Below are positions 9,801-30,505 of a stretch of 41,245 nucleotides of DNA, piece by piece (the first letter of the stretch is position 1; every line of letters begins with the position of its first letter). The translations under genes and the position numbers were made by a program. The stretch is from a virus: positions 1 to 41,245 of the IMG/VR virus record IMGVR_UViG_3300034375_003792; one strand, written 5' to 3'. Under the pieces are notes generated by a model that searched no databases, was not told where the DNA came from, and saw nothing but the letters and a program-made list of their open reading frames with translations.

Positions 9801-10949
9801 GCATTAGGTATTGAATATGATTTAGCAAACTTTACAGTTGATGTTACAATGCCTTTAGTTGTTAATGGTAATGGCTTGAAAGTTGTAGATCCTTTAGATG
9901 TTTCAGTTGATCCTTATTTTGAGCTATTTGAAAATTTACCTACAAATCCAGGTGAATATAATATTAGAGTAAAACTTCCTTTTACTGATAACGTTTATGT
10001 TGGTTCTAACTTTAATGAATATAATTTTACATTTACATTTGAAGTTACAGTTACTGAAATATCAACAGGTAATTCAACTACATCAACTATAAATAAACAA
10101 TCTACACTAGTAAACTTAGATCCTGAGTTATTTAATAATGGCGCAACACCTCCAGAGCCACCAAATGCTACTAAAACATTAGACCCTCAAGAGGCTAATA
10201 TACCTAATCTTTTTTTAGAAACATTGTATGCTAAAAATTCAGCTTATACTAAAACTACATATACTGGGCCTAATACTTATAAAGATTTAACTTATCAAAT
10301 AGTGAGTGCTACAAACTCTAGTTTGCAATCAGTAATAGAAAAGTTTACATTAACAAACCAAGTAGAAAACACAACAACAGGTTTTAACACTATTGATCTT
10401 GAAACTAATAACGCTTATGGCCCAACAGGTCAGAGTCAATTTGTAACACCTGATACTTATGAGATTCTTGTTCAAGTGGCGGATGGTGGTAGCTCTATAG
10501 CTACAATAGAATATACAGTTTTGTTTGGTACTGTACCTGTTAGTTTCCAAACTGTTGATGTAGAAGATTCTTCTGGAGGTACAATTGGCGGTCTTTTTGA
10601 TATACCTTTAATTTTAGTAAATGATCAAACTGATGTCAATAAAAATGGGTATTATCTTTACAAAGATCAAGGTGGTTGGAATAATACTGGTTTTGGTACT
10701 CCTTTAGAAACTACTGTTAGCTCGGGAGTAATAGATTTAGATTTTACTAATTCCGCTAACAATATTGGTGGTACTGTTACTTGTAATAACGTTCCTCCGA
10801 ATAACACTCCTGCTACATGGATTAAAGCAGGAACTATAAGTGGATTAATAAGTCTATTAAATACATGTTCACAATTATCTGCTACAGTTAGTAACTTACA
10901 AGTTACTGGTACATTTCCTGGGTCTAGTTACAAGTGGAATATAGTGTAA
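6897..10949 (+). CDS. Large tail stabilisation / tail tube-hub protein
   Basis: This 1,350-residue virion protein has an N-terminal signature (MNKDLDSRLIPSGEYRDAQN, then a stretch ending VGALENVLGN, within residues 14-51) characteristic, from memory, of the stabilisation protein of crAss-like and marine Bacteroidota podophages. The remainder is beta-rich with many Asn/Thr/Ser/Pro. Residues 950-1250 look like inserted or appended beta-sandwich (Ig-like) domains. No catalytic motif is seen. It probably forms the tail barrel after the adaptor ring and may carry host-contact loops in the C-terminal third. The following gene appears to be a second protein of the same type. Confidence 0.7.
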   Translation: MAEVKNAFIKSKMNKDLDSRLIPSGEYRDAQNAQISRSEGDDVGALENVLGNEVAGKDAINLGAEFEAGESYADDLTCIGYFSDESTNCIYVFLTDGVSQDLTYDKDAHNFIYKYQVGSPAPVKLVEGAFLNFSKYYPIHGVNLLEGLLFFTDNRNQPRKINVNLANPESLPTPTYYTNEDQISVAKYNPYEPIQLFEEITAARVADNSLLTAAEGEYDTTMRDVVSKFYPDGGTAQVTATATGTVFSITDPILEFFPKEQGTGLSNNEPQAGMTLGKILASNPSGPIEDTGVLVDSYSTNQLTVSGSITLALNDILVFNFNPYYDNAYAGDSRFLEDKFVRFSYRFKFDDGEYSIYAPFTQPCFIPKQDGYFLNNSEFLGDQQSTFGSTIVSFMENKVNEIKLIIPLPSTGTNLRDEFKITEVDILFKESDGLAVQVAETITVSDVATSAGSNDYYEYTYINKKPYKTLPESGLIRVYDKIPVRALSQEIISNRVVYGNFQDKHTPPASLDYYVAVGDKEPFNDNILTAKVDGAAGPTTDFNLKDIDPTTSVPYKGAIVSGLSVVSPCFVDSYTGTTVTFTTNQTLPNDEVLTFTPPNDIVNYTSEIEYPSSSVKTNRTYQVGVVLSDKFGRQSSVILSNNKDVITVNDISYSGETIYSAYPSESNLENDIQEWPGNSLKVSFNAIIDSLKTSDNVTIPGMYNGDPNDDGYNPLGWYSFKIVVKQQEQEYYNVYTAGAIKGLPFGGSSADFNTSFVTLINDNINKVPRDLEAVGPQDKTFRSSVRLFGRVMNTEAPFSNTGNEQYPIDPAQPGSILAFRSSFTTNTIEDLFDLFDVADYSGSPGNDPITSPKNPYYPFFKSDSNPFVGEIITSQIASEQFGVENIPNGQNNYTKVENLAIFETAPVVSRLELFYETSTSGLISDLNVAINNSEGVFTAFIDRFLDNSFQEDLKENESMLAGNFEIVDALGIEYDLANFTVDVTMPLVVNGNGLKVVDPLDVSVDPYFELFENLPTNPGEYNIRVKLPFTDNVYVGSNFNEYNFTFTFEVTVTEISTGNSTTSTINKQSTLVNLDPELFNNGATPPEPPNATKTLDPQEANIPNLFLETLYAKNSAYTKTTYTGPNTYKDLTYQIVSATNSSLQSVIEKFTLTNQVENTTTGFNTIDLETNNAYGPTGQSQFVTPDTYEILVQVADGGSSIATIEYTVLFGTVPVSFQTVDVEDSSGGTIGGLFDIPLILVNDQTDVNKNGYYLYKDQGGWNNTGFGTPLETTVSSGVIDLDFTNSANNIGGTVTCNNVPPNNTPATWIKAGTISGLISLLNTCSQLSATVSNLQVTGTFPGSSYKWNIV

Positions 10950-10975: not shown

Positions 10976-12526
10976 ATGGGTGCGATAGTCGAAGTTAAGT
11001 TTTTTAACTCATTTCTTTTGAAGAAGATGAATGCTACTGGACAGGTTTCTCCTAGCCCTCAATCAGTTAATGCGCCTGCTTATGATGGTTCTAGAGGTAT
11101 ACCTCAACAAATAGGTGGTTACAGTAGAATATCAAACGCAGGTATGGGTTATGATGTAAACACTTGTTGGGTTGTAGAAGAAGCTAGAATACGAGGTGGT
11201 TATAATAATACTAATGTTGATTATGGTGTTAGAGCTTATATTGTTGAAGAAGAAATAAATGGATATAGAAAAAACAATTCACTTATATATTCAGGAATAT
11301 TTAATTCACGAACAGGTATAAACCAAACAAATGTATTTTCAGTAGGTGAAGATATAACTAAATCTGTAGACCCTGCTAAAGGCTCAATACAAAAACTATA
11401 TGCTGAAGATACTAACTTAATTATATTCCAAGAAAATAAAGTTAATAGAGCGTTAATAGATAAAGATGCTATATATACAGCGGAAGGTGGCGGTGTTCCT
11501 GTCAGCCAGCTTAATTTAGTAATAGGTCAAATAGTTCCTTACGCTGGAGAGTTTGGTATAAGTGAAGACCCAAGAAGCTTTGCTGTTTATGGTTATAGAA
11601 AATATTTTACAGATAAAAGACGTAATGTAGTTTTAAGATTATCTAGAGATGGTATTACTGAGATATCTAACTACGGTATGCGAGATTATTTTAGAGATCA
11701 GTTTAATAGTATAGACGAAGGCGACAACAAAGGAGTAATACTAGGCGGCTGGGACATGCATAATAAACAATATGTAGTTTCAACTCAACCGCCCACACAA
11801 TCAACAACTTTAGCTTATAACACCTTATCTTTTGATGAAAGTGTTTTAGGTTGGCCAAGTTTCTTTTCTTACAGACCTGATTTAATTTTTAGTTTACGTA
11901 ACAATTTTTATACCGCTAAAGGTAATAAAATATACGAACATTACAATGGGTCAGTTAATAGAGGTAATTTTTATGGTGATGATAATAATACTTCTATATC
12001 ATTTGTATTTAATCCAAACCCTAGTTTGTCTAAAAACTTTAAAACTATAGGATATGAAGGATCAAATGGTTTTGAAATAACTAATTTTACATCAGATCAA
12101 ACAGGTGAAGATCTCGTTAATTCTACATATCAATTTACACGAGATGTTTCTATTGATGTTAAAAGTTATCAACAAGGAGAATATGCTTTTGATTCAAGTG
12201 GTAATGTTATAGCAAGAGCAGATTACGCTTTACCACCTCCAAATGGTTTTGGAACAGCTAATCCGCCAGTGCCTAGATACCATGCTGGTTTTGATAGAAA
12301 AGAAAATAAATACGTAGCATACATAGTTAATGATAGTGCTGCTACACCTGGTGAGGTACGGTTTGGTTCTCAAATGACAGGTATAAAAGGATTTTTCTCT
12401 TTAGTAACTATATCAACAGACATGGTTATAGATCAAACGACTAAACAAGCTACATCAGGTACTAATATAGGTGGACTAAAAGAACTATACGCTGTATCAT
12501 CTAATTATGTAGAATCATCATATTAA
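10976..12526 (+). CDS. Second tail stabilisation / tail protein
   Basis: This 516-residue beta-rich protein contains conserved text such as VSQLNLVIGQIVPYAGEFG and YGYRKYFTDKRRNVVLRLS followed by DGITEISNYGM and RDYF, which I associate with the C-terminal half of stabilisation proteins in related phages. It may therefore be the distal part of a protein that is a single chain elsewhere. It starts 26 bases after the previous stop, with no frameshift or shared frame visible, so the split looks genuine. It is probably part of the tail tube or tip. No enzyme motif is seen. Confidence 0.65.
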   Translation: MGAIVEVKFFNSFLLKKMNATGQVSPSPQSVNAPAYDGSRGIPQQIGGYSRISNAGMGYDVNTCWVVEEARIRGGYNNTNVDYGVRAYIVEEEINGYRKNNSLIYSGIFNSRTGINQTNVFSVGEDITKSVDPAKGSIQKLYAEDTNLIIFQENKVNRALIDKDAIYTAEGGGVPVSQLNLVIGQIVPYAGEFGISEDPRSFAVYGYRKYFTDKRRNVVLRLSRDGITEISNYGMRDYFRDQFNSIDEGDNKGVILGGWDMHNKQYVVSTQPPTQSTTLAYNTLSFDESVLGWPSFFSYRPDLIFSLRNNFYTAKGNKIYEHYNGSVNRGNFYGDDNNTSISFVFNPNPSLSKNFKTIGYEGSNGFEITNFTSDQTGEDLVNSTYQFTRDVSIDVKSYQQGEYAFDSSGNVIARADYALPPPNGFGTANPPVPRYHAGFDRKENKYVAYIVNDSAATPGEVRFGSQMTGIKGFFSLVTISTDMVIDQTTKQATSGTNIGGLKELYAVSSNYVESSY

Positions 12527-12530
12527 AATT

Positions 12531-13274
12531 ATGGAACAAATATTAGAACAACTACAAATATTATTTTTCGGTGATCCATCGCTAGGTTTAAGTTATGGAC
12601 TTGCACCTTTAGCTATAGCTGGAATAGTGCAAGCTGCTGGTAGTGTTGTTACAGGTATCATGGGCAATGCTTCAGCTAGACGTAAGCAAAGAGAAGCTGC
12701 AGCTAAAGCAGGTAGATTACAAAGTAAACTAAATGATTTAGAAAGAAATAGACAAGCTATTATAAATCCTTACGATCAAGTAGAAGATCTTTCTACTATG
12801 ATTACAAATCCATATGATAATCTTGGTGTTGCTACTCAAGCGGCTGAAATGCAAGCTGAGCAAGCTGATATATCTTTAGCTAATACATTAGACGCTATAA
12901 GATCTACAGGAGCCAGCGCAGGTGGCGCAACAGCTTTAGCTCAAGCAGCTTTACAAAGTAAAAAAGGTGTATCTGCTAGTATTGAACAGCAAGAAGCTCA
13001 AAACGAAAAATTAAAAGCTCAAGGTGAAATGCAAGAAATGCAAGCTCGTATGGCTGAAGCTCAGCGATTACAACAAGCTGGTGTGCAAGGAAGTATATTT
13101 GAATTCCAAGCTAGAGAGCAAAGAGAAACAGCTCAACTAGATAGAATATCAGCAGAGTTAGCAGGAGCTGAAGCTCAACAAGCTCAAGCTCAGGCGGATA
13201 GAACTGGAATACTAACAGGTGCTATCGGAGGTGTTACAGCAGGTATAGGAAATATAGCAGGTGCGGGAAAATGA
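12531..13274 (+). CDS. Internal virion protein, membrane-active, Ala/Gln-rich coiled coil
   Basis: This 247-residue protein has a hydrophobic segment at about 20-45 (GLAPLAIAGIVQAAGSVVTG), a long Ala/Gln/Glu coiled coil (46-225) and a Gly-rich hydrophobic end (GILTGAIGGVTAGIG). This layout matches T7 gp14-like internal virion proteins that are ejected and help form the trans-envelope channel. That role is inferred from design and position just before the giant protein, not from a diagnostic motif. Its stop overlaps the next ATG (ATGA), suggesting translational coupling. Confidence 0.65.
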   Translation: MEQILEQLQILFFGDPSLGLSYGLAPLAIAGIVQAAGSVVTGIMGNASARRKQREAAAKAGRLQSKLNDLERNRQAIINPYDQVEDLSTMITNPYDNLGVATQAAEMQAEQADISLANTLDAIRSTGASAGGATALAQAALQSKKGVSASIEQQEAQNEKLKAQGEMQEMQARMAEAQRLQQAGVQGSIFEFQAREQRETAQLDRISAELAGAEAQQAQAQADRTGILTGAIGGVTAGIGNIAGAGK

Positions 13275-13411
13275 AGGCAACGCCAATAAGCCCAACACCG
13301 TTAACACAAACACAACAAAATCAAGTTATAGGTGGGTTTATACCAGGTTATTCACTCATGAATACTCCTAGTGATATAATACCCACAAATATAATGAATC
13401 CAACAAGATAA
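13271..13411 (+). CDS. Small Pro/Thr-rich protein, 46 residues
   Basis: This short ORF starts in an ATGA overlap with the internal virion protein and ends 2 bases before the next ATG, exactly filling the space between two virion genes. The product begins MKATPISPTPLTQTQQNQ and has no recognised domain. It is probably a minor virion peptide or linker. Tight packing is the main evidence that it is a gene. Confidence 0.55.
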   Translation: MKATPISPTPLTQTQQNQVIGGFIPGYSLMNTPSDIIPTNIMNPTR

Positions 13412-13413
13412 TA

Positions 13414-14811
13414 ATGAGTTATAGAAACCCAAAACAATTTATCGACACACAAACTGGTCAGCATTATAGAAATCTTATTAAGAGCGTAACTAAAACTGGT
13501 GATGATTTAGCTAAACGTATTGTAGCTCGTAATGCAGAAGTTGCTGAGCGTAACAATAAGATTATTAGTGATGCAGATAAAAAAGAACAAGCTATACTTC
13601 AACAGTTTGGTAATGTAACTGCAGGTAATCCAGCGTTTAATTACGGGGAAGGTTTTGCAAGATATATCGATGAATACAGTGATTTAAATATAGCTGTTAA
13701 TACTGGAACAAGTCAAAATCCACAAGCAGCTAGACAACGCATGGCTGAAATAGAAAGTCTTCCAGTTATGGCTAGACAAGGTTTAGAAGGTTTAATTGAA
13801 ATGACAGATAACTTTATAGAGAAAGCTAATAATAGAGGTCGAATGGGTGGGTTGGATTTACCTGGTGTAGAGACAGAAGATTTAAAATCTTTTTTAATAC
13901 TTGCAGATCAATTAAAAGGTAGTAGATCTTTTGAAGTTGTTGAAGAAAATGGTAAGTTAGTACCTGCGTATAGTTTAGGTGATAGGATGTGGACTTATAC
14001 TCAAATAGAAAATTATCTAAACAATGATATAGCTGGCGGTGCTTTCAATGTCATTCCAGATGAAACAGAAAGTTTTACTAAAGCAGCTGAATTAGCAATG
14101 ATTCCAGATCCGCAGAATCCTGAAAATAAAATACTAGATCCTAAATATTACGAAAATGAAGATGAAGTAGAAGGTAAACCTGACAGTAAAGGTAATAGAG
14201 TTTTTTATAGACCGCTTGATATTAATGCGCTTAAAAAAGCACCAATAGGTCAAATGCTTAAAGCTGATGGCAGCTCTATGACTAATGCTGATAAAATATC
14301 TTTTTGGAATAATATATTATCTACAGAAGATAACTGGGCTTATGGAGAACCTTTAAGTAGTACGCAATTAAAAGATTTTGAAGAAGCTTACATAGAGTAT
14401 GGATTAAGAAATTACTTACGTCAAGAAAACGATGCAAGAATTGTAGAACCTCCTAAGCCAGAAGAAGTAGAAGCACCTAAAACTTCAGAACTAAAGCTAG
14501 AAGCTTTTGAAGAACTTATAGATACAAAAGGAGGTAAAGAAAAAATTTACAGGGCTTTTGTTACAGGACCTGGCGCTAATGTAGCTGATCAAATAAGCCT
14601 TATGCTACAAGACTTAGCTATACCAAACGAAGTGTTACAAGTTCAAGATAATGAAGGTAACGTAGATCAAGATCTTATAAGAATAGATGTTGCTGGAAGA
14701 GAAGGTAAAATAGATATAGATATTACTAAACCAGATATGGCTGTTGCTAAGTTGAAGTACGCCATATCAGGTGACTATAGTCATGTAAGAGAACTTCAAA
14801 AACAAAATTAA
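13414..14811 (+). CDS. Virion-associated protein of unknown function
   Basis: This 465-residue protein is mostly helical and acidic, beginning MSYRNPKQFIDTQTGQHYRN. It has a helical N-terminal half, a Pro/Glu linker near 348-356 (EPPKPEEVEAPK) and a small alpha/beta C-terminal domain. It lies between the gp14-like protein and the giant multidomain protein, the slot for internal or ejected core proteins such as T7 gp15. That comparison is positional only; no lytic or binding motif is seen. The next gene starts 5 bases downstream. Confidence 0.6.
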   Translation: MSYRNPKQFIDTQTGQHYRNLIKSVTKTGDDLAKRIVARNAEVAERNNKIISDADKKEQAILQQFGNVTAGNPAFNYGEGFARYIDEYSDLNIAVNTGTSQNPQAARQRMAEIESLPVMARQGLEGLIEMTDNFIEKANNRGRMGGLDLPGVETEDLKSFLILADQLKGSRSFEVVEENGKLVPAYSLGDRMWTYTQIENYLNNDIAGGAFNVIPDETESFTKAAELAMIPDPQNPENKILDPKYYENEDEVEGKPDSKGNRVFYRPLDINALKKAPIGQMLKADGSSMTNADKISFWNNILSTEDNWAYGEPLSSTQLKDFEEAYIEYGLRNYLRQENDARIVEPPKPEEVEAPKTSELKLEAFEELIDTKGGKEKIYRAFVTGPGANVADQISLMLQDLAIPNEVLQVQDNEGNVDQDLIRIDVAGREGKIDIDITKPDMAVAKLKYAISGDYSHVRELQKQN

Positions 14812-14816
14812 ATATT

Positions 14817-17800
14817 ATGTTTAAATATAAATTAGGCGAAGATATTTTCAATGTTCCAGCTGAAGAGGTAGATATCTTTGAAGCTGAAACTCCTGATGCT
14901 GTCAGAATTACAGACGAAATAACAGATCCAGAAGAGGGAAAGACAAACGGTGTTGCGGAAGAGGGTGCAACTGTAACACCGACAACCGGGCAAGCACCCG
15001 AGATAATAGACGACACTGGAGCTCCGGAAGTTACGGGCTTCAAGCCGGTAGAATCTTCATTGGGATCAAAGTGGACTGATAACTTTGTAGAGTTAGAAGG
15101 AGTACAATTTGATGATGGAGCTATAGGTTTAGGTGCTGTTGAGCTAGAAGGCGTTACTGTTACCGCTGATCAATATAAGAAAGTAGAACAAGATATAGAA
15201 AACGAAGGCGCTAAACAAGTTGAAGAACAAGTTATAGCTATGAGCCCTGGCGACATTAGCGGTTTAGTGAAGTTTTTATCAGATAAAGGTAATGATCTTT
15301 TTGGTAAACCTGAAAAAGCTGAAGATATAAGTACAACAGCTAGTCTGTATGGTACAACTGTAAATTCGTTAGTTCAATTAAGTGGCGTAGATGATAGGGC
15401 TAATTACGTTTTGTCTGCGTTTACTAATCAAATACCTGATGATGTTTTTTTAAATATATTAGGTGAAGACGCGGGCAGAAGAGCTATACAAGCTAATAGA
15501 GATTATTTTAAAAGAACAAACGAACAGTACGATTATATTAATAGTTTAAATTTACCTACACTGGGATTTACAGACATAGGTAAAAAAGAAGGATTATCTA
15601 AAGTAGGTACTGGCTTGGCGGCTACGCTTAACGGTATATCTTCTTTTGCTACTTCAGCGGCTACGTCTGTTGCTACAGGTGGTGTTGGTCTTGCTACGGA
15701 TATAGGTGCTAACGCTATAAAAAGTTTTAACGACACTAAAGCTCAGTCGTTAGGGTTAACATCTGAAGAGCTGTTTGCTTCTGGTCAAGGCGAAGTATTA
15801 ATACCTAGTTCTATAGCAGTTTTGCAATTTGGCTTAGAAAGACTTGGTATAAAAAAAGTAGGTGAGTATTTTAATAAATTACCAGCTGGTAAAACTAAAG
15901 GTTTATTTTCTATGTTAAACGTAGGAAACGCAGAAGCTATACCTGAATACCTGCAAGGTGGTTTAGATATATTTAATGAAGGACTTGCTCAAGGTTTAAA
16001 CGCTGAAGATGCTAGTGAAAAAGTTTTAGATTATTTAACTTCACCTGATGGTATTGAAAACTATCTTCAAGGTTTAGTTGGTGGTTCTGGTATAGCTGGA
16101 ATAGGTTCTGCTGCAAGAAAACTTAGAACTAATAAAGATAACGAAGCTATATCTAAAATTATTAGAGATCTTAATGATTTAGAGAATAGTAAGTTTAGAA
16201 AAAATTTAACAGCTGAAGATATAGCTGGTATAAATACAGCTCAAGAGGAACTTAGATTTAATTTAACACAAATTATAGATAAAAGCAATGCTCTAGCTGG
16301 AACTTTATCTGATGCCCAAATAGAAGAGCTAAATGCTAATTCTGATTTTTTAACAAGCTCTGCGGATAGAATAAACGAAATAGAAGCGTCTGATGAGTTT
16401 ACGCAGAAAGATAAAGAAGTTTTATTACAAACTATAGAACAACAAAGAAAAGTAGCATCTCAAAACATATTTGATATACGCAGTGAAGCTGAAAAGTTTT
16501 ATAGTAATTTGTTTAATGTAAGAGCTGCTGCTGAAAAAAGAGACGATGTTAAAGTTCTTGACTTTGCTAACGCTAACGAAATACAAACATACTTAAATGA
16601 TAATCCTGATCTTGTGGCTGAAGGTGGTAGGGTAGCTGCTTCTGGCGAACAAGGATTTTTTATACCTGGTGCTGGAGATAGTCCTGGTACCATTATAATT
16701 AACAGAGAAAAATCTTTAGATGAAAAAGCTGTTAATGTAGCTAGACATGAATTTTTACACTATGTGCTAGACAGTACTTTAAAAAATAATCCTGCTGCTG
16801 CTATAAATCTAGGTAACGCATTATTAAAAGAGCTAGATAAAATTGATGTAAACAAAATAAAGGATAGCAACTTTAAAAAGCGAATGGAGCTCTACAAAGA
16901 TGAGAAAGTAGAGATCCAAATGGAAGAAGCTTTAACTTTGTTTTCAGACGCTTTAGCTACAGGCGATATACAATTAAATGAAGATATATCAACTATGCTT
17001 GGTGATAGATTTCGTAGGGTTTTAGGTAGAGTCGGCGTCAAAGTAAAATTCAATAAAGGTAGCGATGTAGTTAATTTTGTAAAAGACTTTAATAAAAGTT
17101 TAGAAAAAGGCGTACTAACAAAAGCTCAACAAGCCGTAACTGAAAAGGGTGCAGAAGGCGAGTTAATACCGCAAGCAGAGCAACAAGCTGACGAGCAAAT
17201 AATTAAAGAGTCTAGATCTGAAGAAGCGTCACAACGTGTTCAAGAAATATATAATCAGCAAGGCACAGCTGGAGCTTTTGAAATTATAGAACAGTTTAAA
17301 CCTATTACAAGTAAATTAGTTGAGCGTAGATCTGAAGCTCCTGGGTTTGATAGACAATTACTTACTGATGAAATAGAAACAGGTCAGCGCGGTATAATAG
17401 ATTTAATTAGCGAATATGATCCTGAGTCAAGTGTACCGCTAGCGGCTTATATAAATAAGTTTTTACCAGCTAGAGCTATTGAAGCTTCTAATAGAGTTTT
17501 AGGTGAAGAGTTTACTGCAGATGTTACAGAAGCTAGAGGCGTTGTAGCAGAAGAAGCAGATGTTGAAGTTGCAGAGCAACCTAAGGGGCCAAGAAAACCT
17601 ACTGAAACAACTAGGTTTAGCGATACAGTGTTAACTAACTTAGGCGTAGAAAATAAAGCTGAAGCTGAAAAACAAATATCAGATGCTACTAACAAAGCGT
17701 TTGAAGGTCAAGACGTTACAAGATTTGGTCAAACTAAAAATGTACCAGCTGCTGTTGCGGAAATATATGGTAAGATGTTTGGTGTAAACCCAGAAACTAT

Positions 17801-20800
17801 ATATGATAAAAAACGAAACTACTCTAAAAAAGATGCTGAAGGTTTAACACGTATAAAGCAATACTTAATAGACAATGCTACTAGCGACTTTGCTAGACTG
17901 CCGAAAACTAAAGATGACTTTGGTAAAGCTACGTTTATACCTAACAATGTAATGAACGCTTTATATACAGATGGTGAGTTAACTGGTACACTAAAAGATT
18001 ATTTAGATCTTATTAGAGAAAAACCTGTTAAACCTATTTACAGAGATAGAGTAGGTCAAACTATACGAGGTTTATTTAATACTAGCATTAGAAACCGTAT
18101 GGTTGAAGATCTTATACCTAGTAAACCTGAAAGAGCTAGAGCTGGAGTTAAGTTTGCTAAATCAGAAGCTAAACCTAAGGTAAGACAAAACAGGTTTGAG
18201 GTTAGCGGTAAAAATGGTATTGTTATAATGAGAGACAATGCTGAGCAATTTGCTAAAGCTAACAATGTAACAATAGAGTTTGAAGGTGAAACAATAACTG
18301 CTAAAAATTTAGATTCAAATAATCCTAAACACAGAGCTTACATTCAACAACAAATAGAGACTGAGTTGTGGAAGTATTTTCCTATAGAAGCTTTAGACGG
18401 ATCTACAGTAGTTGATTACAGTTCTAAACAAGATAGAGGTTTTTATTTTACAAAAGAAGAATGGGCTGAGATATCTAAACGTGCAAAGGCAAACAAAGCT
18501 AATTGGTTAGCTAGAGGTAATAAGCTTTTATTTAATGACAAAGGTATTAAGGTAGCTAAAGCAGTTAAAGCTCCGCCAAAAAATAAAGAATATTATAGTT
18601 CTGACAAGTTTAAAGCAAAGTTAAAAGACTGGAAAGCTGGTGTTAAAGATATACTAGATGGTGGTGCTAATGCTATAAAGGCAGATCCTAGTATGTACTT
18701 ACCTATATACGCTATATTTTCCACACAGTCTCAGTCTTCTTCTCATTTAGTTAGAAATATGTCAGTAGAGCGTGGAGCTTCTGAAGCTTTTATAAACGCC
18801 ACAAAGTCCACGCCGACAGTTAAAGAGCATGTTGAACCTTCTAACGAAATGGCTCCGCTTATGTATGAAGCTATGCTATTTGACGAAGTTGATGTTTTAA
18901 TACCTGTAGTTGATTTAATTTATTATCAACTAGGTATAACTAAAACACAAGACGATAAAACGCTTGACGTGTCTGGTATGTATGGAGATCCTTACAACTA
19001 CAAAACAACTCAAACAGACGAGTTTAATGAAGCGTTGAGAGAATATTTTAAGACAGGTGATGTAAATAAAATACTATCTCCACTCATTAGATATTTTAAT
19101 CCACAAGTAAACAACAATACTAGTGAAGATAATATACCTGGTTTTAATAGTAACACATTAATATTTGAAGGTAAAACAGTTGCTGAAATATACACAAAAC
19201 AACTAACTAAGTCTGAACAAAACAATGATAATTTATTTTATCAAAACGAATTAACTTATCAAGTTTTAAAAGGTGATATAACACAACAACAAGCTATTGA
19301 AAGATTAAACGAGTTTACTAAAATAAAAACTTTAGTAAAAGCATCTAAGTCTAATGATGGTAAACTACCGCCTGGTATTAGATTAGAAGACCCTAAAACT
19401 TTTGATAAGTTTGATATGGCTAACACTGTTGCTAGACGGATGTTCCCTAAGCAAGCTAATTCTGATGCGGTTAAGTCAGGTAGGTTAACGGCTTACGAAG
19501 CTTTAGATCCTGATCAAAAGTTTATAGTAATGCAAGAAGTACCAGGCTCTCCTATAGTAAAGCAAACTATAGATTTAATGGCTACTTCAGATGAAGCTAT
19601 TAAATTTTCACGTAATGCAGATGCACCTAATAAAGGTATAAGCGTATGGGACTTTGATGACACACTTGCTACTACTAAATCTAATGTATTATACACTATG
19701 CCTGACGGAACTGAAGGTACACTAACAGCTGAACAGTTTGCTAAACAAGGTGAGCAGCTTTTAGAAGAAGGTGCTGTGTTTGATTTTAGTGAGTTTGAAA
19801 AAGTTACTAAAGGAGCTAAAGGCCCTATGTTTGAAAAGGCAGTAGCTCGTAATAGAAAGTTTGGTAATGATAACGTGTTTATTCTTACGGCTAGAACACA
19901 AGCGGCTGCAGAACCTATACACCAGTTTTTAAAAGCAATAGGTCTAGATATACCACTTAGAAATATTGTAGGGTTAGGTAACAGTACACCTGAAGCTAAG
20001 GCGCGTTGGGTTGTAGGTAAAGCTGCAGAAGGTTATAATGATTTTTACTTTGCAGATGATGCTTATAAAAATGTTAAAGCAGTACAAGATGCTCTTAGTG
20101 TACTAGACGTTAAATCAAAAGTAAGACAAGCGTATGTTAAATACAGTAAGTCAGAAGCGTTAGATAAAGGATTTAACGATATATTAGAACAAACAACTGG
20201 TATTGCATCGGAAAAAGAATACAAGAAAGTTAAAGCAGAAGTAGCTGGCGCGTCGCGCGGTAGAGTGTTTAGAGGTATACCATACTCAGCTCAAGATTTT
20301 GTAGGATTATTATACGAAACGCTAAGCAAAGGTAAACTTGGTGACTCACAAATGGCTTGGTACAAAGAACATTTAATAAAACCGTACGCTAGAGCAATGA
20401 ATGATATTGACAACGCTAGACTTAGCGCTATGCAAGACTACAGAGCTCTTAAAAAACAATTAGGATTTGTACCTAAAAACTTACGTAAAAAATTACCAGG
20501 TGAACCTTTCACAAGAGAACAAGCTGTACGTGTTTATATTTGGAATAAATTAGGTTATGATGTACCTGGTATTAGCAAGCAGGATTTAAAAGAATTAAGT
20601 GAGTATGTAGCTGATAACGCTGATTTACAGGTATTTGCTGATCAAGTTATTGCTATACAAAAAGGTGAGTATGCTAAACCAAAAGAAGGTTGGCCAGCTG
20701 GCACAATAACAACTGATATACAGGAGAGTATAAATACAGGTGTTAGAGCCAAATACTTACAACAGTGGCAAGACAATGTAGATGTTATATTCTCTGAAAA

Positions 20801-22166
20801 GAATATGAATAAACTTGAAGCTGCATATGGTAAACCATACCGTAAAGCTATGGAAAATATGCTACAACGTATGAAGACAGGTCGTAACAGAACATTTTCT
20901 GACGATAGCTTAACAGGTAGATTCACAGACTGGTTACAAGGTAGTATTGGTACTATTATGTTCTTTAACACTAGATCAGCATTGCTACAGACAATATCAG
21001 CTGTAAACTTTATAAACTTTACAGACAACAATCCTATTGCCGCAGCAAAAGCTTTTGCAAATCAAAAACAATACTGGTCAGACTTTATGACTCTTGCTAA
21101 TTCTGACTTTTTAAAAGCTCGTAGATCAGGTTTAAGATTTAATGTAACTGAAGCTGACATTGCTAACATGGCAAAAGAAGGTGGGCCAAGAGCTGTAGTA
21201 AATAAATTATTACAATTAGGTTTTGCACCTACACAAATAGCAGATAGTTTTGCTATTGCTTCTGGAGGTGCTACGTTTTATAGAAACAGAATAAAATCCT
21301 TAATGAAACAAGGAATGTCTCAAGCTGAAGCTGAAACAAAAGCATTTGAAGATTTTAGAGAAAATGCTGAAGAGTCTCAGCAGTCATCAAGACCAGATCG
21401 TATATCAATGCAGCAAGCTGGACCGCTCGGTCGATTAATATTAGCGTTTGCTAACACGCCTGCTCAGTACGCTAGGCTTACGGATAAAGCTATACGTGAT
21501 CTTAAAAATAACAGAGGTGATGCAAAAACAAATATAAGTAAAATTATATATTATACAACAGTGCAGAACCTTATATTCAACGCTATACAACAAGCTATAT
21601 TTGCTATGGCGTTTGATGACGAAGAACCAGAAGATGAAGAAAAGAAAGATAAGTATATTAGTATCGCTAATGGTATGGCTGACTCGTTATTACGTGGAAC
21701 AGGTTTTGCTGGCGCGGCTGTATCTGTGGGTAAAAACGCGATCATACGAATCTTCGACGAAATGGAAAAGAAACAACCTAAGCTTGAAAAAGTAGGTTAT
21801 GAATTAACTAAAATATCACCACCGATATCTGCTAAATTATCAAGAATAAACCAAGCAGCAAGATCATATCAATGGGATAAAGACGAAATGATTAATGGCG
21901 GGTGGGGATTAGATAATCCAGCTTACTTAGCGGCAGGTAATGTAGTATCAGCTCTTACAAATGTACCTATAGATAGAGGTATAAAGAAAGCAAATAATAT
22001 AGTTAGATCTACAGAAAGCGATCTTGAACTATGGGAAAGATTAGCCTTGCTTGGTGGTTGGCAAGACTGGGAAATAGGGTTAGATGAAGAAACAAAACAA
22101 AATAAACCACAACCTAGAAAAACTAAAAGAAAAGTAGTTAAAAAACGTAAAGTTATAAAAAAATGA
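14817..22166 (+). CDS. Giant multidomain (polyvalent-type) virion protein with metallopeptidase-like, sigma-like and HAD phosphatase domains
   Basis: This 2,449-residue protein is the largest in the window. In order: an acidic N-terminus; a Gly/Ala-rich hydrophobic stretch at about 265-300; coiled coil at 440-600; a zinc-metallopeptidase-like core with RHEFLH (HExxH at 644-648) and a possible third ligand at E703/E704; a short segment resembling sigma-70 region 2 (GIIDLISEYDPESSVPLAAY, 859-878); a HAD hydrolase domain with motif I DFDDT (1612-1616), ILTAR (1689-1693) and FADDA (1745-1749); and a long helical C-terminus with a hydrophobic segment near 2245-2265 and a Lys/Arg-rich tail. Such chains match phage polyvalent proteins, thought to be packaged and ejected to protect or reprogram the infected cell, and fill the T7 gp16 position. 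The HAD call is firm, the peptidase likely, the sigma segment tentative. Confidence 0.8.
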   Translation: MFKYKLGEDIFNVPAEEVDIFEAETPDAVRITDEITDPEEGKTNGVAEEGATVTPTTGQAPEIIDDTGAPEVTGFKPVESSLGSKWTDNFVELEGVQFDDGAIGLGAVELEGVTVTADQYKKVEQDIENEGAKQVEEQVIAMSPGDISGLVKFLSDKGNDLFGKPEKAEDISTTASLYGTTVNSLVQLSGVDDRANYVLSAFTNQIPDDVFLNILGEDAGRRAIQANRDYFKRTNEQYDYINSLNLPTLGFTDIGKKEGLSKVGTGLAATLNGISSFATSAATSVATGGVGLATDIGANAIKSFNDTKAQSLGLTSEELFASGQGEVLIPSSIAVLQFGLERLGIKKVGEYFNKLPAGKTKGLFSMLNVGNAEAIPEYLQGGLDIFNEGLAQGLNAEDASEKVLDYLTSPDGIENYLQGLVGGSGIAGIGSAARKLRTNKDNEAISKIIRDLNDLENSKFRKNLTAEDIAGINTAQEELRFNLTQIIDKSNALAGTLSDAQIEELNANSDFLTSSADRINEIEASDEFTQKDKEVLLQTIEQQRKVASQNIFDIRSEAEKFYSNLFNVRAAAEKRDDVKVLDFANANEIQTYLNDNPDLVAEGGRVAASGEQGFFIPGAGDSPGTIIINREKSLDEKAVNVARHEFLHYVLDSTLKNNPAAAINLGNALLKELDKIDVNKIKDSNFKKRMELYKDEKVEIQMEEALTLFSDALATGDIQLNEDISTMLGDRFRRVLGRVGVKVKFNKGSDVVNFVKDFNKSLEKGVLTKAQQAVTEKGAEGELIPQAEQQADEQIIKESRSEEASQRVQEIYNQQGTAGAFEIIEQFKPITSKLVERRSEAPGFDRQLLTDEIETGQRGIIDLISEYDPESSVPLAAYINKFLPARAIEASNRVLGEEFTADVTEARGVVAEEADVEVAEQPKGPRKPTETTRFSDTVLTNLGVENKAEAEKQISDATNKAFEGQDVTRFGQTKNVPAAVAEIYGKMFGVNPETIYDKKRNYSKKDAEGLTRIKQYLIDNATSDFARLPKTKDDFGKATFIPNNVMNALYTDGELTGTLKDYLDLIREKPVKPIYRDRVGQTIRGLFNTSIRNRMVEDLIPSKPERARAGVKFAKSEAKPKVRQNRFEVSGKNGIVIMRDNAEQFAKANNVTIEFEGETITAKNLDSNNPKHRAYIQQQIETELWKYFPIEALDGSTVVDYSSKQDRGFYFTKEEWAEISKRAKANKANWLARGNKLLFNDKGIKVAKAVKAPPKNKEYYSSDKFKAKLKDWKAGVKDILDGGANAIKADPSMYLPIYAIFSTQSQSSSHLVRNMSVERGASEAFINATKSTPTVKEHVEPSNEMAPLMYEAMLFDEVDVLIPVVDLIYYQLGITKTQDDKTLDVSGMYGDPYNYKTTQTDEFNEALREYFKTGDVNKILSPLIRYFNPQVNNNTSEDNIPGFNSNTLIFEGKTVAEIYTKQLTKSEQNNDNLFYQNELTYQVLKGDITQQQAIERLNEFTKIKTLVKASKSNDGKLPPGIRLEDPKTFDKFDMANTVARRMFPKQANSDAVKSGRLTAYEALDPDQKFIVMQEVPGSPIVKQTIDLMATSDEAIKFSRNADAPNKGISVWDFDDTLATTKSNVLYTMPDGTEGTLTAEQFAKQGEQLLEEGAVFDFSEFEKVTKGAKGPMFEKAVARNRKFGNDNVFILTARTQAAAEPIHQFLKAIGLDIPLRNIVGLGNSTPEAKARWVVGKAAEGYNDFYFADDAYKNVKAVQDALSVLDVKSKVRQAYVKYSKSEALDKGFNDILEQTTGIASEKEYKKVKAEVAGASRGRVFRGIPYSAQDFVGLLYETLSKGKLGDSQMAWYKEHLIKPYARAMNDIDNARLSAMQDYRALKKQLGFVPKNLRKKLPGEPFTREQAVRVYIWNKLGYDVPGISKQDLKELSEYVADNADLQVFADQVIAIQKGEYAKPKEGWPAGTITTDIQESINTGVRAKYLQQWQDNVDVIFSEKNMNKLEAAYGKPYRKAMENMLQRMKTGRNRTFSDDSLTGRFTDWLQGSIGTIMFFNTRSALLQTISAVNFINFTDNNPIAAAKAFANQKQYWSDFMTLANSDFLKARRSGLRFNVTEADIANMAKEGGPRAVVNKLLQLGFAPTQIADSFAIASGGATFYRNRIKSLMKQGMSQAEAETKAFEDFRENAEESQQSSRPDRISMQQAGPLGRLILAFANTPAQYARLTDKAIRDLKNNRGDAKTNISKIIYYTTVQNLIFNAIQQAIFAMAFDDEEPEDEEKKDKYISIANGMADSLLRGTGFAGAAVSVGKNAIIRIFDEMEKKQPKLEKVGYELTKISPPISAKLSRINQAARSYQWDKDEMINGGWGLDNPAYLAAGNVVSALTNVPIDRGIKKANNIVRSTESDLELWERLALLGGWQDWEIGLDEETKQNKPQPRKTKRKVVKKRKVIKK

Positions 22167-23335
22167 AAAAACTTATATTGTTTTTAAGTATATTATTGTT
22201 TTCAATAAATACTAATGGTCAGTTTTTTAAATCATTATATGATGACTTCGTCAAGTACGGAACTGTGTATGCTGCAGGTAATGTAAGCAATGCTAAGCTA
22301 GAGCAACCAAAGTATTTTGTTAGAACAAATCCAGATAATTTATATGACATACCACTTGTTGTAGATCAAACTACATATCATGATTACAACTACAGGTTTG
22401 GTGTTGGTATACGTAAATTAGCAAGGTTTGGCTACGAAAGTCGACCAAACTTTTACAATGGTACAGAAAACAATGTAGGCTTATCTGCACCTACAGCTGC
22501 GGTAAAAGGATTAGAATATTTATTGCATTGGGAAAAACAAAGAGTTGATGGTAATGAGTTTGATAACAAACGTTTATTTGTAAGACATACAGGTAATTAT
22601 CATATAGCTAAATACGAAACAAGAGAATCAGGTAATGTTGGCTTTGAATATACTTCTGGTGAAGTAAGAGCTAGATTACCTATAGGTAAAAAGCTTAGCA
22701 TATCTGCAGGTATTATATATCGTACACATCAAAAAGCGTACGGCTACAACCCTATCGAAATATGGTTAAATGAAATGGATGCTGATGGTAATGCATTGCA
22801 TCCTTGGTGGACTTTAGGTTATGAGTATGGATTTGTAGATGAACTTACTGAGTACAATAATTTAATTACAGGACAACAATTTTATAACTACGTTTGGAAA
22901 AATTCTCAAGGCGATATAATAGCTTACACTGATCAACAGTTTAGAGACCAAGTGTTTGGTGGATTAATGAATAGATTTAATCAAGAAGCTTGGGCTGAAC
23001 TAGATCCTTTTGCTGAGATAGCTCCTATAATGGGATTTGATTTTTATCATTATAGAAATAACTTCTGGTTACATGCTTATGGCAATTGGATTATGCCACA
23101 CCACAGCTACGTAAAAGGAAATGAAGATTTTAGTTATTTACATCGTAATAGCTGGGGTAAAGGCGGTCACAACGATTTACTTGCTGGTGAACAATGGGAC
23201 GATTATCAAGCAGGTTTAATGTTTGGTTGGAAAATAACTAAGTCAATTGGTGTATTTATAGAAGGTGAATATACAAAATTTTGGGACTCAGAAATATTTA
23301 ACTCTAACTTTGGAATTAATATAACATTTAGATAA
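22163..23335 (+). CDS. Exported outer-membrane-like protein with signal peptide
   Basis: This 390-residue protein has a signal peptide, MKKLILFLSILLFSINTNG, followed by Q, a cleavage context common in Bacteroidota. The mature part is rich in aromatic residues and alternating strands (for example SISAGIIYRTH and KSIGVFIEGEYTKFW) and ends GINITFR, similar to the terminal strand of outer-membrane beta-barrels. A phage-encoded surface protein could block receptors (superinfection exclusion) or alter the envelope; this is inference. It overlaps the giant gene by ATGA and lies in the late operon before the lysis genes. It could alternatively be a secreted virion component. Confidence 0.65.
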   Translation: MKKLILFLSILLFSINTNGQFFKSLYDDFVKYGTVYAAGNVSNAKLEQPKYFVRTNPDNLYDIPLVVDQTTYHDYNYRFGVGIRKLARFGYESRPNFYNGTENNVGLSAPTAAVKGLEYLLHWEKQRVDGNEFDNKRLFVRHTGNYHIAKYETRESGNVGFEYTSGEVRARLPIGKKLSISAGIIYRTHQKAYGYNPIEIWLNEMDADGNALHPWWTLGYEYGFVDELTEYNNLITGQQFYNYVWKNSQGDIIAYTDQQFRDQVFGGLMNRFNQEAWAELDPFAEIAPIMGFDFYHYRNNFWLHAYGNWIMPHHSYVKGNEDFSYLHRNSWGKGGHNDLLAGEQWDDYQAGLMFGWKITKSIGVFIEGEYTKFWDSEIFNSNFGINITFR

Positions 23336-25416: not shown

Positions 25417-25449
25417 AAGGGGAAGTCGCAAGACCTCCCCTTTTTTTTT
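25417..25449 (+). terminator. Rho-independent terminator ending the late operon
   Basis: The arm AAGGGGAAGTC pairs with GACCTCCCCTT (one mismatch) around a GCAA tetraloop, followed by a run of seven further T's. It lies 50 bases after the holin stop and abuts the 3' end of the convergent nrdA gene. The T-run is on the + strand only, so it mainly stops late transcription before it enters the early genes from behind. Confidence 0.9.
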
Positions 25450-27214
25450 ATCCGTCACAAGCCAGACAGTCTGGGTCCATAGCGCTAGCTGCTATGTCAC
25501 CGCGCAACACTGACTCGGTGCGCATGTAGTACAGCGTCTTAATACCTTTTTTCCACGCATCCATATGAACTTGATTAATCCATTTTGGCGTAGCTTCAGA
25601 AGGAAAAGCTAAGTTTAAACTTACAGCTTGATCAATATACTGTTGACGTATGCCAGCTTGATTAACAAGCTCTAATTGATTTATTTCTTTAAATGTTTTG
25701 AATACATCTTTAACTTTATCAAAGCCTGTTAGATCTAATGTATCATGCTCAGAAAGACGTACTAGCTTACCATTTACATAACCAAAATCATCTAGCTCTT
25801 TAATATCTTGTATGCTACCTCCGTCTTCTAGAATTTTATCCCACGTTTCTTTATTATTTATACTTGCTTTGCGTAGTACTTTTTCTAGTTCTTTGTTCTT
25901 CCTAATGAACGTACCCTTCGCACTTTGTTCAGTGAAAACATTAGCGGCCCAAGGCTCAATGCCAGGACTAACATTACCGGCAAGCTTACTATTAGACACA
26001 GTAGGAGCAACAGCCCTAAGATGAGTGTTACGAAAGCCAGTGCCACGACACCAAAGAGGTTCACCGTAAACCTCAGCCAATGCTCTTGATGCTCGTTCAG
26101 ATTCAATTTTAATTTGGCTAAATATACGTCTTGTCTGGAACTGAGCTTGTAATCCTTCAAAGGGTATACCGTTTTGTTGCAAGTACGTATGCCAACCAAG
26201 GACTCCCAAGCCAAGTGCTCTGCCTTTCTCAGCAGATCTAACAGAGTTTCCAAAACCTTTAAGCCCTTTAGCTTTCTGAATAAACTCCTCCAACACTCCA
26301 TCAAGAAACCATATAGCATCGTATATAAGGTTTGTATTTTTCCACTCTTCATATTTAGTAACATTTAAACTACTCAAGCAACATACAAAACTATGTGACT
26401 CATCTGTATGCAATACAATTTCACTGCATATGTTAGTCATATGTACTTTTAAAGCGTTGTCTTTGTAAGCTGCTGGATTTGCTTTGTTAGTGTTTCCTTT
26501 AAACAATATATACGGCTCTCCAGTTGACTTTCGTTTTCTAAGTAATTTACTCCATCTACTTCTAGCTTCAGCATCTCCTTGTTCAAGACGACGCATAAAC
26601 TTATCACCAACAACTGCGCATTGATGTAGGTTAAGCGATTGTCTGTTGACATCGCCTTTAGGTTCTCGTATTTCAAGCCACTCTTCAAAATCGTCGTGCT
26701 CAATGTTGATATTAACGCTTGCAGCTCCGCGTCTAACTGATCCTTGATTTGTAGCAAGTATTGTTGAATCGTATATCTTGCAGAAGGGTACGACTCCGTC
26801 TGATGTTCCATTGCCTGTTATTGTTGCGCCGGCGGGTCTAATCATATTGATACCAATGCCAACTCCGCCGCCATGCTTTGCGAGTAACATCATCTCTAAG
26901 TTTTTAGTACCAATATCGTGTATACTATCACCGACATCAATACCAAAACAACTAATAGGTAAACCACGATCAGTGCCTGTATTAGATAATACTGGCGAAG
27001 CTAAGCACAACCAGCCTTTCCATATATAATCAAAGAAAGTGTCTGTTAGTTCTGGTTTATACAAACGTCTAGCAATTGTACTAGCTACACGCATGTATGC
27101 ATCACGTGGTGATTCCCATGGTAATAAGTAACCTCCTGCTATAGTTTTTTTATATACATCAGTGTCACCCCAAGCAGGATAGTCGACACCTTTTTTCCAA
27201 TCGTTATTCCACAT
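25448..27214 (-). CDS. nrdA: Ribonucleotide reductase class I, alpha subunit
   Basis: This 588-residue catalytic subunit reduces NDPs to dNDPs. Visible residues: C89 (GLPISCF) and C278/C279 as the redox pair region, the radical site N261-x-C263-x-E265 (NICSEI), the tandem tyrosines Y562-Y563 (TLYYMRTES) of the radical path, and the C-terminal C583-x-x-C586 that passes electrons from thioredoxin or glutaredoxin. It starts directly in the catalytic barrel and lacks the N-terminal ATP-cone, so dATP shut-off by that domain is absent. It lies downstream of nrdB in the same operon, with two small genes between. Its start overlaps the previous stop by one base. Confidence 0.93.
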   Translation of the reverse strand: MWNNDWKKGVDYPAWGDTDVYKKTIAGGYLLPWESPRDAYMRVASTIARRLYKPELTDTFFDYIWKGWLCLASPVLSNTGTDRGLPISCFGIDVGDSIHDIGTKNLEMMLLAKHGGGVGIGINMIRPAGATITGNGTSDGVVPFCKIYDSTILATNQGSVRRGAASVNINIEHDDFEEWLEIREPKGDVNRQSLNLHQCAVVGDKFMRRLEQGDAEARSRWSKLLRKRKSTGEPYILFKGNTNKANPAAYKDNALKVHMTNICSEIVLHTDESHSFVCCLSSLNVTKYEEWKNTNLIYDAIWFLDGVLEEFIQKAKGLKGFGNSVRSAEKGRALGLGVLGWHTYLQQNGIPFEGLQAQFQTRRIFSQIKIESERASRALAEVYGEPLWCRGTGFRNTHLRAVAPTVSNSKLAGNVSPGIEPWAANVFTEQSAKGTFIRKNKELEKVLRKASINNKETWDKILEDGGSIQDIKELDDFGYVNGKLVRLSEHDTLDLTGFDKVKDVFKTFKEINQLELVNQAGIRQQYIDQAVSLNLAFPSEATPKWINQVHMDAWKKGIKTLYYMRTESVLRGDIAASAMDPDCLACDG

Positions 27215-27492
27215 TATTCAAAAAATAGTAGCGCGTACGCTATCATTACATTTAAGTTTACTATTACTAAGTTCCATTGCTTTGCTACCCAAACTTGTGG
27301 TGTGCAAAACAAACCAGCTAAAAAATATATTACTATACCTGGTGTATCAGGTAACATATGGGGAGCTGTTACAAAAAAACCGGTCCCCATATATCCTAAT
27401 CTATTAGCTAGTCTTTCCGTCGGCGTCAGACGGCGTTCCAGTACTAGGCTCTTCAGCCACTTTCTCTTTAATCTGTTCGATAGCCTGCTCAT
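27214..27492 (-). CDS. Small membrane protein of unknown function between nrdB and nrdA
   Basis: This 92-residue protein has a basic N-terminus and two hydrophobic spans (about 50-63, PGIVIYFLAGLF, and 73-91, WNLVIVNLNVMIAYALLFF). The segment LGYMGTGFFVTAPH…WVAKQWNLVIVN looks conserved in marine phages from memory. The first 34 residues overlap the upstream gene by 89 bases, and an internal start at M35 (27,390) would remove that overlap. The longer form is given because LTPTERLANRLGYMG looks continuous. Function unknown. Confidence 0.6.
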   Translation of the reverse strand: MSRLSNRLKRKWLKSLVLERRLTPTERLANRLGYMGTGFFVTAPHMLPDTPGIVIYFLAGLFCTPQVWVAKQWNLVIVNLNVMIAYALLFFE

Positions 27493-27631
27493 AGTCTGGC
27501 ATTAATTTTAAAGTTTCATGTGTACCATAAGATAAAGTTTTTAAAGCAGATACTTCTTGAAGCAACAGCTCAACTAATCTACCAAGAGACTCTATCTTTT
27601 TTTGCATTTCAATTAATTTACTTTCTTTCAT
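27404..27631 (-). CDS. Small coiled-coil protein of unknown function
   Basis: This 75-residue protein starts MKESKLIEMQKKIESLGRLV. Residues 1-35 form a heptad-type coiled coil and the rest is acidic with a flexible Ser/Thr/Pro/Asp tail. It lies between nrdB and nrdA and overlaps the next gene. No family is assigned. The charged helical pattern and typical codon use suggest it is translated; it may be a small oligomeric regulator or accessory protein. Confidence 0.55.
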   Translation of the reverse strand: MKESKLIEMQKKIESLGRLVELLLQEVSALKTLSYGTHETLKLMPDYEQAIEQIKEKVAEEPSTGTPSDADGKTS

Positions 27632-27675
27632 TTCTTAATTTTAGATCGTCCCACATTTCATCTTCCGACATAAGA

Positions 27676-28635: not shown

Positions 28636-28796
28636 TACTTAAACACTTCATATGCCACATCTATAAATGGCAGGTAAAATACATATGCTGTTTGTTTAGG
28701 TTCTTCGTATGTTCTCATACCGAATAATATACCTGGGTAAAACCCAAATGACAATGACCAGGTTTTACCGACCTTGTCCCCTGTATTGTTTGACAT
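28635..28796 (-). CDS. Small conserved phage protein, 53 residues
   Basis: Its stop overlaps the nrdB start by one base. The start chosen is MSNNTGDKVGK, because upstream in-frame sequence is better explained by the overlapping gene at 28765-28899. The product contains TWSLSFGFYPGILFGMRTY and YVFYLPFIDVA, a pattern I associate with small unannotated proteins of marine phages. It is aromatic and moderately hydrophobic, possibly membrane-peripheral. Function unknown. Confidence 0.65.
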   Translation of the reverse strand: MSNNTGDKVGKTWSLSFGFYPGILFGMRTYEEPKQTAYVFYLPFIDVAYEVFK

Positions 28797-28899
28797 AATT
28801 TTTACTTTGTTTATTGTTACTGTTTTTTGTTTTAGCGTGAACACCTGGTCTACGCACTTTCGATTTTTCTTTATATGCAAATAAATTTAATTTAGCCAT
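28765..28899 (-). CDS. Small very basic protein, 44 residues
   Basis: It starts MAKLNLFAYKEKSKVRRPGV and ends KNYVKQYRGQGR. The RRPGVHAK…SKNYVK.YRGQGR pattern matches a small protein seen, from memory, in many marine phage genomes. It carries about 14 Lys/Arg, so it may bind nucleic acid. It overlaps the following gene by 32 bases and the preceding gene's stop by 8 bases, consistent with coupled translation. Confidence 0.65.
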   Translation of the reverse strand: MAKLNLFAYKEKSKVRRPGVHAKTKNSNNKQSKNYVKQYRGQGR

Positions 28900-29065
28900 A
28901 CACTTTTATATTATGTTTATCGTGTTGTTCAACTAGATCTTTGTATTTTAAAAAACCACGTTGATTAACTGACCATTTAATAAACTTATCGATCTGTCTC
29001 TCTGCATACTTACGTCTTGCTACTTCCTTTGCTTTTCTAGGATTAGCTGTATTGTTCTGTCGCAT
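28892..29065 (-). CDS. Small basic protein, 57 residues
   Basis: This ORF covers the otherwise empty space between the nuclease gene and the basic 44-residue gene, overlapping both (46 and 8 bases). The product begins MRQNNTANPRKAKEVARRKY and continues with an amphipathic helical region (AERQIDKFIKWSVNQRGFLK). No family is recognised. Coding status rests on packing, composition and the neat stop/start overlap. Confidence 0.5.
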   Translation of the reverse strand: MRQNNTANPRKAKEVARRKYAERQIDKFIKWSVNQRGFLKYKDLVEQHDKHNIKVYG

Positions 29066-30500: not shown

Positions 30501-30505
30501 TTAAA

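Follow-up and report, generated by a model that had tools for sequence, protein, structure and literature searches.

Giant ejected proteins are common and, to our knowledge, mostly lack an explanation. Among the closest described systems are the polyvalent proteins (Iyer et al., 2017, PMC5512222), which combine several unrelated enzymatic domains, including a zincin MPTase, are encoded beside a portal-terminase packaging module and are presumed to be packaged and injected, all of which resembles the giant protein described here. Autoproteolytic release by the MPTase has been proposed for them (PMC5512222). N4 gp50, likewise huge and cysteine-free, is ejected with two cysteine-free partners and displays a C-terminally located HExxH domain, after which comes a large helical one (PMC12633501). 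The lack of cysteine in N4-like virion polymerases was reported previously and attributed to the need for tail passage (PMC3915230). In crAss001, gp47 is a cargo protein which was detected in the virion by mass spectrometry (PMC10172136). Finally, T7 gp16 is, like the present giant, the cysteine-free last and largest member of three consecutive ejected core proteins (with gp14 and gp15).

The window, i.e. the whole stretch of 41,245 nucleotides analysed here, is a 41-kb record of an uncultured marine virus in IMG/VR. Its late genes find counterparts, in the same order, in the Flavobacterium elemo phages, Cellulophaga phages phi38:1 and phi18:3, Maribacter phage Panino and a spring-water podovirus, and the late module resembles that of Elemovirus, Pervagoviridae and Pachyviridae phages. 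Portal and capsid genes are located upstream of the giant gene, and in related phages a terminase gene precedes the portal gene. A muzzle-type tail protein is encoded at 10976–12526 (plus strand), with matches to PF25729 (crAss_MUZ_C, 1.6e-8) and, by blastp, to crAss001 gp44 (2.5e-5). Based on the matching late-gene order and the crAss-type muzzle C-terminus, the phage is assigned as short-tailed, with a crAss-type muzzle, and as no relative of T7; judged by kinship, its host is probably a member of the Flavobacteriia. The T7-like setting given in the preliminary description was abandoned, as the late module matches flavobacterial podoviruses with a crAss-type muzzle. The muzzle itself seems to be divided between two ORFs (6897–10949 and 10976–12526, both on the plus strand), each of which matches part of phrog_14478 and part of the giant structural proteins that related phages have in one piece.

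The minus-strand genes of the window (25448–40509) encode both subunits of ribonucleotide reductase, thymidylate synthase, a Toprim primase-helicase, DNA ligase, an exonuclease, a resolvase and a sigma factor; the searches made detected neither a DNA nor an RNA polymerase among them. The stand-alone sigma factor (251 residues, 34945–35700, minus strand) matches PF04545 (5e-6), PF04542 (8e-4) and phrog_351 (5e-20), and a sigma factor is present in 14 of 20 records of relatives, the present phage included. The RNA polymerase families PF00940 and PF00623, which do not cover crAss-type polymerases, were absent from 20 genomes including the present one, and the positive control of the PF00940 search was found in T7 and N4. 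Since a sigma factor is encoded and no RNA polymerase was seen, the phages of this group probably depend on the host polymerase. On the plus strand, a 390-residue protein is encoded at 22163–23335, in a 4-base overlap with the giant gene. Its start resembles a signal peptide (MKKLILFLSILLFSINTNGQ), its end (NFGINITFR) is typical for outer-membrane barrels, and it matched no family. It is possibly a phage-encoded outer-membrane protein, for instance for superinfection exclusion.

The giant protein is encoded by a single uninterrupted ORF at 14817–22166 of the plus strand, on which all its parts are numbered below. It is one chain of 2,449 residues without any cysteine, and the coordinates reported earlier were found to be accurate. 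The giant gene is the last of the late module, and related phages likewise end their late module with a giant-protein gene, the position being equal to that of phi18:3 gp123, phi38:1 gp101, elemo gp18 and crAss001 gp47. In phi18:3, gp123, gp120 and gp121 were annotated from MS/MS proteomics. A profile of the C-terminal module matched gp074 of Tenacibaculum phage Gundel_1 (2.6e-12), which in turn matched phi18:3 gp123 (4e-14), and the zincin region matched elemo gp18 (9e-11); the MS/MS link to the giant passes through distant homologues. Two partners are encoded upstream. The nearer one, a cysteine-free probable ejection protein of 465 residues (13414–14811, plus strand), stands in the place of phi18:3 gp121. 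The other, of 247 residues (12531–13274, plus strand), is also cysteine-free, displays a hydrophobic N-terminal stretch and matches Gundel gp072 (5e-5), itself homologous to phi18:3 gp120; by position it is T7 gp14-like.

The depletion of cysteine extends across the family. None is present in 98 of 114 complete homologues of the giant. The giant itself should contain about 28 cysteines at the rate of the downstream genes and about 7 at that of the other structural genes of the window. At the homologous positions of relatives, the gene just upstream is cysteine-free in 80 of 81 cases and the preceding one in 70 of 71, while the other late genes contain 2.05 and the minus-strand genes 15.97 cysteines per 1000 residues. 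The ejected trio (12531–22166 in the window, and about 80 relatives) is in practice devoid of cysteine. Among known ejected proteins, cysteine is similarly missing from T7 gp15 and gp16, N4 gp50, gp51 and gp52, and crAss001 gp46; crAss001 gp47 has one and gp45 two, and T7 gp6.7 and gp14 one each. Gene position, the homology chain to a virion protein detected by MS/MS and cysteine depletion all speak for the earlier proposal of an ejected virion protein. From this sequence evidence, the giant is very likely an ejected multi-enzyme protein.

The protein family occurs in hundreds of uncultured marine phages and contigs, IMG/VR containing for the C-terminal module at least 366 relatives and for the HAD module at least 514. 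No full-length protein was found in cultured phages, and whole-protein tblastn against 50,697 phage records gave no match. Relatives in bacterial and archaeal MAG contigs (Aliivibrio, Woesearchaeota and others) were judged to be binning contamination. Whole-protein searches against Pfam, NCBIfam, PHROG and PDB yielded nothing useful; an NCBIfam match to UPF0181/YoaH (0.0056) was judged to be due to chance. The motifs announced by the preliminary description are all present, namely HEFLH (644–648), EE (703–704), DFDDT (1612–1616), ILTAR (1689–1693) and FADDA (1745–1749), and they are conserved far above chance level. Both catalytic sets being conserved, the description as a polyvalent-type chain that combines a HAD phosphatase domain with a metallopeptidase-type site was supported.

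In 64 complete homologues the module order is zincin, sigma-like domain, HAD and C-terminal module; the remaining complete homologues miss single modules with the order unchanged. The N-terminal part (residues 1–561, 14817–16499) is variable and divergent in homologues. It contains the previously noticed Gly/Ala stretch (residues 274–292), and no segment of the protein reaches transmembrane level. The membrane-like tail once proposed found no support: the best 19-residue hydropathy is 1.38 for the whole protein and 1.09 for the C-terminal part, which reaches 1.6 in only 3 of 115 homologues. A conserved 'EHxxP' module (approximate limits 18684–19316, residues ~1290–1500), to which no function was assigned, is folded in the AF2 model, and its E1337-H1338 pair (E797/H798 of the alignment) is nearly invariant in 88 aligned homologues. 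The C-terminal module (residues 1780–2449, 20154–22163) is all-alpha in the AF2 model with a basic end (KRKVVKKRKVIKK), in agreement with the long helical C-terminus described before. Together with HAD it is the most conserved part of the giant and has relatives in IMG/VR. No named LPD domain was matched by Pfam in the chain, and the helical module may represent an undescribed LPD domain. In four homologues (L121, L118, L123, L175), about 500 or more additional residues are inserted between HAD and the C-terminal module, flanked in L121, L118 and L123 by further (K/R)YSK motifs.

The zincin-like metallopeptidase domain comprises residues 562–829 (16500–17303), modelled by AF2 with pLDDT mostly around 90. 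It carries the zinc-binding and catalytic motif HEFLH (residues 644–648, 16746–16760) and E704 (16926–16928) as predicted third zinc ligand. In the iterated family alignment E645, H648 and E704 are kept in 118 of 118 sequences and H644 in 113. Of the zinc site predicted earlier as H644/H648/E703-E704, the residues H644, H648 and E704 were upheld, while E703 turned out to be variable (E in 79/118). Identity in the protease region falls to ~16–30% among homologues, and in a 76-member alignment reaching down to 16% identity, H644, E645, H648 and E704 are the sole invariant columns. Pfam matches were weak (Peptidase_M78 in 14 of 76 members, best 0.0015; SprT and ATLF in two each), the recurrent one, Peptidase_M78, being of zincin type. 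The structural check of residues 600–750 gave a divided answer. The AF2 model is confident and places HExxH and E704 in helices; Foldseek recovered no peptidase or PDB zincin. The query was the large multidomain AF2 model of 1,057 residues (541–1597), with no significant hit in PDB and two significant viral hits, both to proteins of uncultured viruses. A zincin-domain profile gave no relevant match among PDB sequences either. The zincin fold is supported by motif and topology, without a structural match. In five homologues (L058, L025, L053, L054, L055) HExxH is replaced by EELFH, and since glutamate takes the place of the first zinc ligand, their protease may be inactive. In the present giant, the invariant site suggests that the zincin is probably an active protease. 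That it acts mainly on the giant itself is conceivable, at slightly less than even odds.

The stretch 840–910, proposed for checking, revealed a domain overlooked by the preliminary description. Residues 822–918 (17280–17570) are similar to region 2 of sigma-70 factors. A 43-sequence profile searched against all PDB sequences matched 8b3z (2e-5), 8vjl (1.1e-3) and SigI1 and RpoS (both 0.03), and most of its 33 hits are sigma factors aligned at region 2. A second profile, built mainly from divergent members and without the close relatives of the window, also ranked 8b3z first (8e-5); some members are common to both profiles and both derive from one iterative search, which makes them not fully independent. 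The Pfam family Sigma70_r2 matched 9 of the 41 members of the second profile, at best with 0.0013. The match is confined to the core-binding subregions 2.1–2.2, with ungapped agreement over a DEIETGxxGIxxxIxxYDP...Y pattern. As the longer alignment (815–1115) weakens the match to 0.057, the assignment is limited to region 2. The tryptophan pair of region 2.3 (the promoter-melting aromatics) is missing, YINKFL replacing YATWWI, and no Sigma70_r4 was detected in the giant chain. For both reasons the domain, as read from its sequence, cannot be a full sigma factor. It did not match the phage's own sigma factor. In most homologues it directly follows the zincin, and no packaged sigma-like domain was found in the open-access literature searched. 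Since these phages probably depend on the host polymerase, a packaged module gripping that polymerase would have a plausible use. Whether the domain does bind RNA polymerase is close to an even question, with the balance slightly on the negative side.

The HAD phosphatase domain (residues ~1606–1772, 19632–20132) has a predicted pocket which is intact as anticipated, motifs I (DxDDT), II (LTAR), III (K1728) and IV (DD) being invariant or nearly so. D1612 and D1614 are conserved in ~106 of 107 sequences, T1691 in 108/108, K1728 in 107/107, and D1747 and D1748 in 108/108. The fold check of 1595–1780 was equally positive. High-probability Foldseek hits (0.92–0.99) are mostly HAD phosphatases, such as PH1952, phosphoserine phosphatase, Ceg4 and nitrophenyl phosphatases, with E-values of ~0.1–0.3 owing to the large size of the model. 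Single members match DUF2608 (2.2e-5) and HAD (0.0031). Neither a domain profile against PDB sequences nor a comparison with the 'polynucleotide kinase' gp61 of crAss001 gave a relevant match. A reading of motif I as a crAss-type polymerase motif was ruled out by motifs II–IV and the fold hits. The sole PHROG lead, phrog_415 'polynucleotide kinase' (41 of 54 members), fits the idea of DNA- or RNA-end dephosphorylation without proving it. From its conserved pocket, the domain can be expected with good confidence to be active as a phosphatase; nucleic-acid ends or nucleotides are tentatively suggested as its substrates. HAD is missing in about one quarter of the homologues, where the flanking modules then adjoin, and it is for this reason an exchangeable, accessory module. 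A single-base frameshift in a poly-A run breaks the ORF of homologue L007 within HAD and is probably due to a sequencing error.

A short motif, (V/I)K(F/Y)SK(S/T/A), also overlooked previously, is concentrated at the junctions between modules. The giant displays it as VKFAKS (residues 1112–1115, 18150–18161; KFSK in relatives), as IKFSR just before HAD (1596–1599, 19602–19613) and as VKYSKS just after HAD (1775–1778, 20139–20150). All three copies lie in or beside low-confidence, probably disordered AF2 stretches, with pLDDT below 50 at two of them (model residues 570–597 for the first and, in part, 179–183 for the last). In 114 giants the pattern [IVL][KRQ][FY]S[KR] was matched 104 times, against 7.4 in shuffles, and [KR][FY]S[KR] occurs 4.6 times per 10,000 residues in giants against 0.65 in other ORFs. 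The density per 10,000 residues, which partly reflects inheritance at homologous positions, amounts to 94 just before HAD, 110 just after HAD and 82 at the HAD-less junction. Elsewhere it is low: the N-terminal part has 0.4, the C-terminal module 1.6 and the zincin 2.5, and the value for the HAD and sigma cores is 0. There are 55 distinct contexts, with V/I preferred before and S/T/A after the motif. It may be a candidate cleavage site for the giant's own protease; that cleavage takes place there is nevertheless doubtful. Three of the five homologues with E for H644 retain the motif, so that its link to an active protease is not a strict one. Elemo gp18 contains the zincin and lacks a KFSK site. 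No cleavage-site motif was found in PMC5512222. A FLSR sequence at ~720 of P1 DdrB, near the reported processing size, was set aside, relaxed matches being common.

As a whole, these data are best explained by a three-protein ejection set with a multi-enzyme cargo, to which we give a probability of about 0.7. A podovirus of the crAss-muzzle type would eject three cargo proteins free of cysteine, the giant being the largest. Packaged in the virion, the giant would pass through the tail and across the periplasm in a largely unfolded state, before or together with the DNA, and would refold in the cell into a multi-enzyme tool. The variable N-terminal and helical C-terminal parts would serve packaging, channel formation or DNA passage. 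The zincin (H644, E645, H648, E704) would cut between the modules, at flexible junctions of the VKFSKS type. The sigma region 2-like module would take hold of the host RNA polymerase core immediately, since the phages encode a sigma factor and no recognisable polymerase. The HAD module would strip phosphates from nucleic-acid ends or nucleotides. In this scheme we infer the ejection of the present protein, its self-cleavage, its binding to RNA polymerase and the substrate of its phosphatase. A fuller version, with a toolkit that divides itself by proteolysis at the VKFSKS junctions into exchangeable modules inside the host and a sigma-2-like clamp that seizes the polymerase before any phage gene expression, is improbable; in it, the clamp would stand in for the packaged polymerase of N4 and crAss-like phages.

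Other readings share the ejection and differ in the role of the protease. The zincin could be an effector acting on a host protein, as also proposed for MPTase domains (PMC5512222), with the KFSK motifs being linkers left by domain shuffling. The loose coupling between motif and intact protease is in line with this, and so is the HAD cassette, found between two motif copies in some homologues and missing there in others, as a recombination joint would lead one to expect. The preferred motif flanks in 55 unrelated contexts and at other mid-protein junctions, however, point to a recognised site more than to a DNA joint, and we consider this reading possible and the less probable one. Alternatively, the zincin could process the giant during head assembly, before ejection, so that only fragments are packaged. 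Junction motifs situated between modules would suit such processing, and for P1 DdrB, which is processed to ~76 kDa, Iyer et al. prefer autoproteolysis ahead of packaging (PMC5512222). N4 vRNAP, however, with its HExxH domain, was reported to be packaged uncleaved (PMC5512222), and as the entire chain and not one part of it is free of cysteine, the whole giant is suggested to cross the envelope. Processing in the head is rather unlikely on this balance.

The sigma-like stretch could also represent a chance helical resemblance, or a structural helix bundle, with no link to RNA polymerase. Single sequences barely match Sigma70_r2, the longer profile is weaker, the sigma hits obtained with the AF2 model are no more than weak and the promoter-melting aromatics are missing. 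Both profiles nevertheless rank a sigma factor first, the second one without close relatives of the window, and most of their further hits are sigma factors aligned at the same region, which leaves a fortuitous resemblance on the unlikely side. An ordinary structural or channel protein with decayed enzyme domains would agree with T7 gp16-type internal core proteins, which are mainly channel formers (PMC8954989). It is hardly credible, as more than 100 divergent homologues have kept the catalytic residues unchanged.

The giant stands for a protein family of marine phages in which very probably ejected chains carry intact enzyme sites. The cysteine-free signature could identify the ejected set of podoviruses from sequence alone. 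A sigma-2-like domain carried in the virion might give early control of host RNA polymerase by a new route, and the junction motif is a candidate for what the proteases of polyvalent proteins recognise, their targets having been in question since 2017.

Compared with known systems, the giant holds a position analogous to that of T7 gp16, with no significant sequence match and with a different lineage and tail type; crAss001 gp47 corresponds more closely. Like the giant, PhicrAss001 gp47 is encoded by the third gene after the muzzle, has ~2,300–2,400 residues, HExxH and one or no cysteine. It differs in giving no match to the giant-family profiles and in being annotated as RNA polymerase-associated (PMC10172136). 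N4 gp50 contains a T7-like polymerase core, in place of which the giant has the sigma-2-like and HAD modules and no polymerase. The 'structural protein' giants of flavobacterial podoviruses (phi18:3 gp123, phi38:1 gp101, Gundel_1 gp074 and elemo gp18) share the gene position. Direct homology was obtained with gp074 (C-terminal module) and gp18 (zincin), and indirect homology, via these two, with gp123 and gp101; all four lack HAD and have only parts in common with the giant. With zincin, sigma-2-like and HAD domains, the chain contains at least two distinct effector or enzymatic domains, as polyvalent proteins do, and the portal-terminase packaging module is found as well (portal and capsid upstream, terminase in related phages); unlike them, it has no curated Pfam domain match. 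The terms 'haloacid', 'phosphatase' and 'sigma' do not occur in the text of PMC5512222, which leaves the HAD and sigma-2-like modules unmentioned there. The giant belongs to a known kind, that of zincin-bearing ejected polyvalent proteins (Iyer et al., 2017; N4 vRNAP; crAss001 gp47), and its HAD and sigma-2-like modules are the new elements when measured against the text of that paper.
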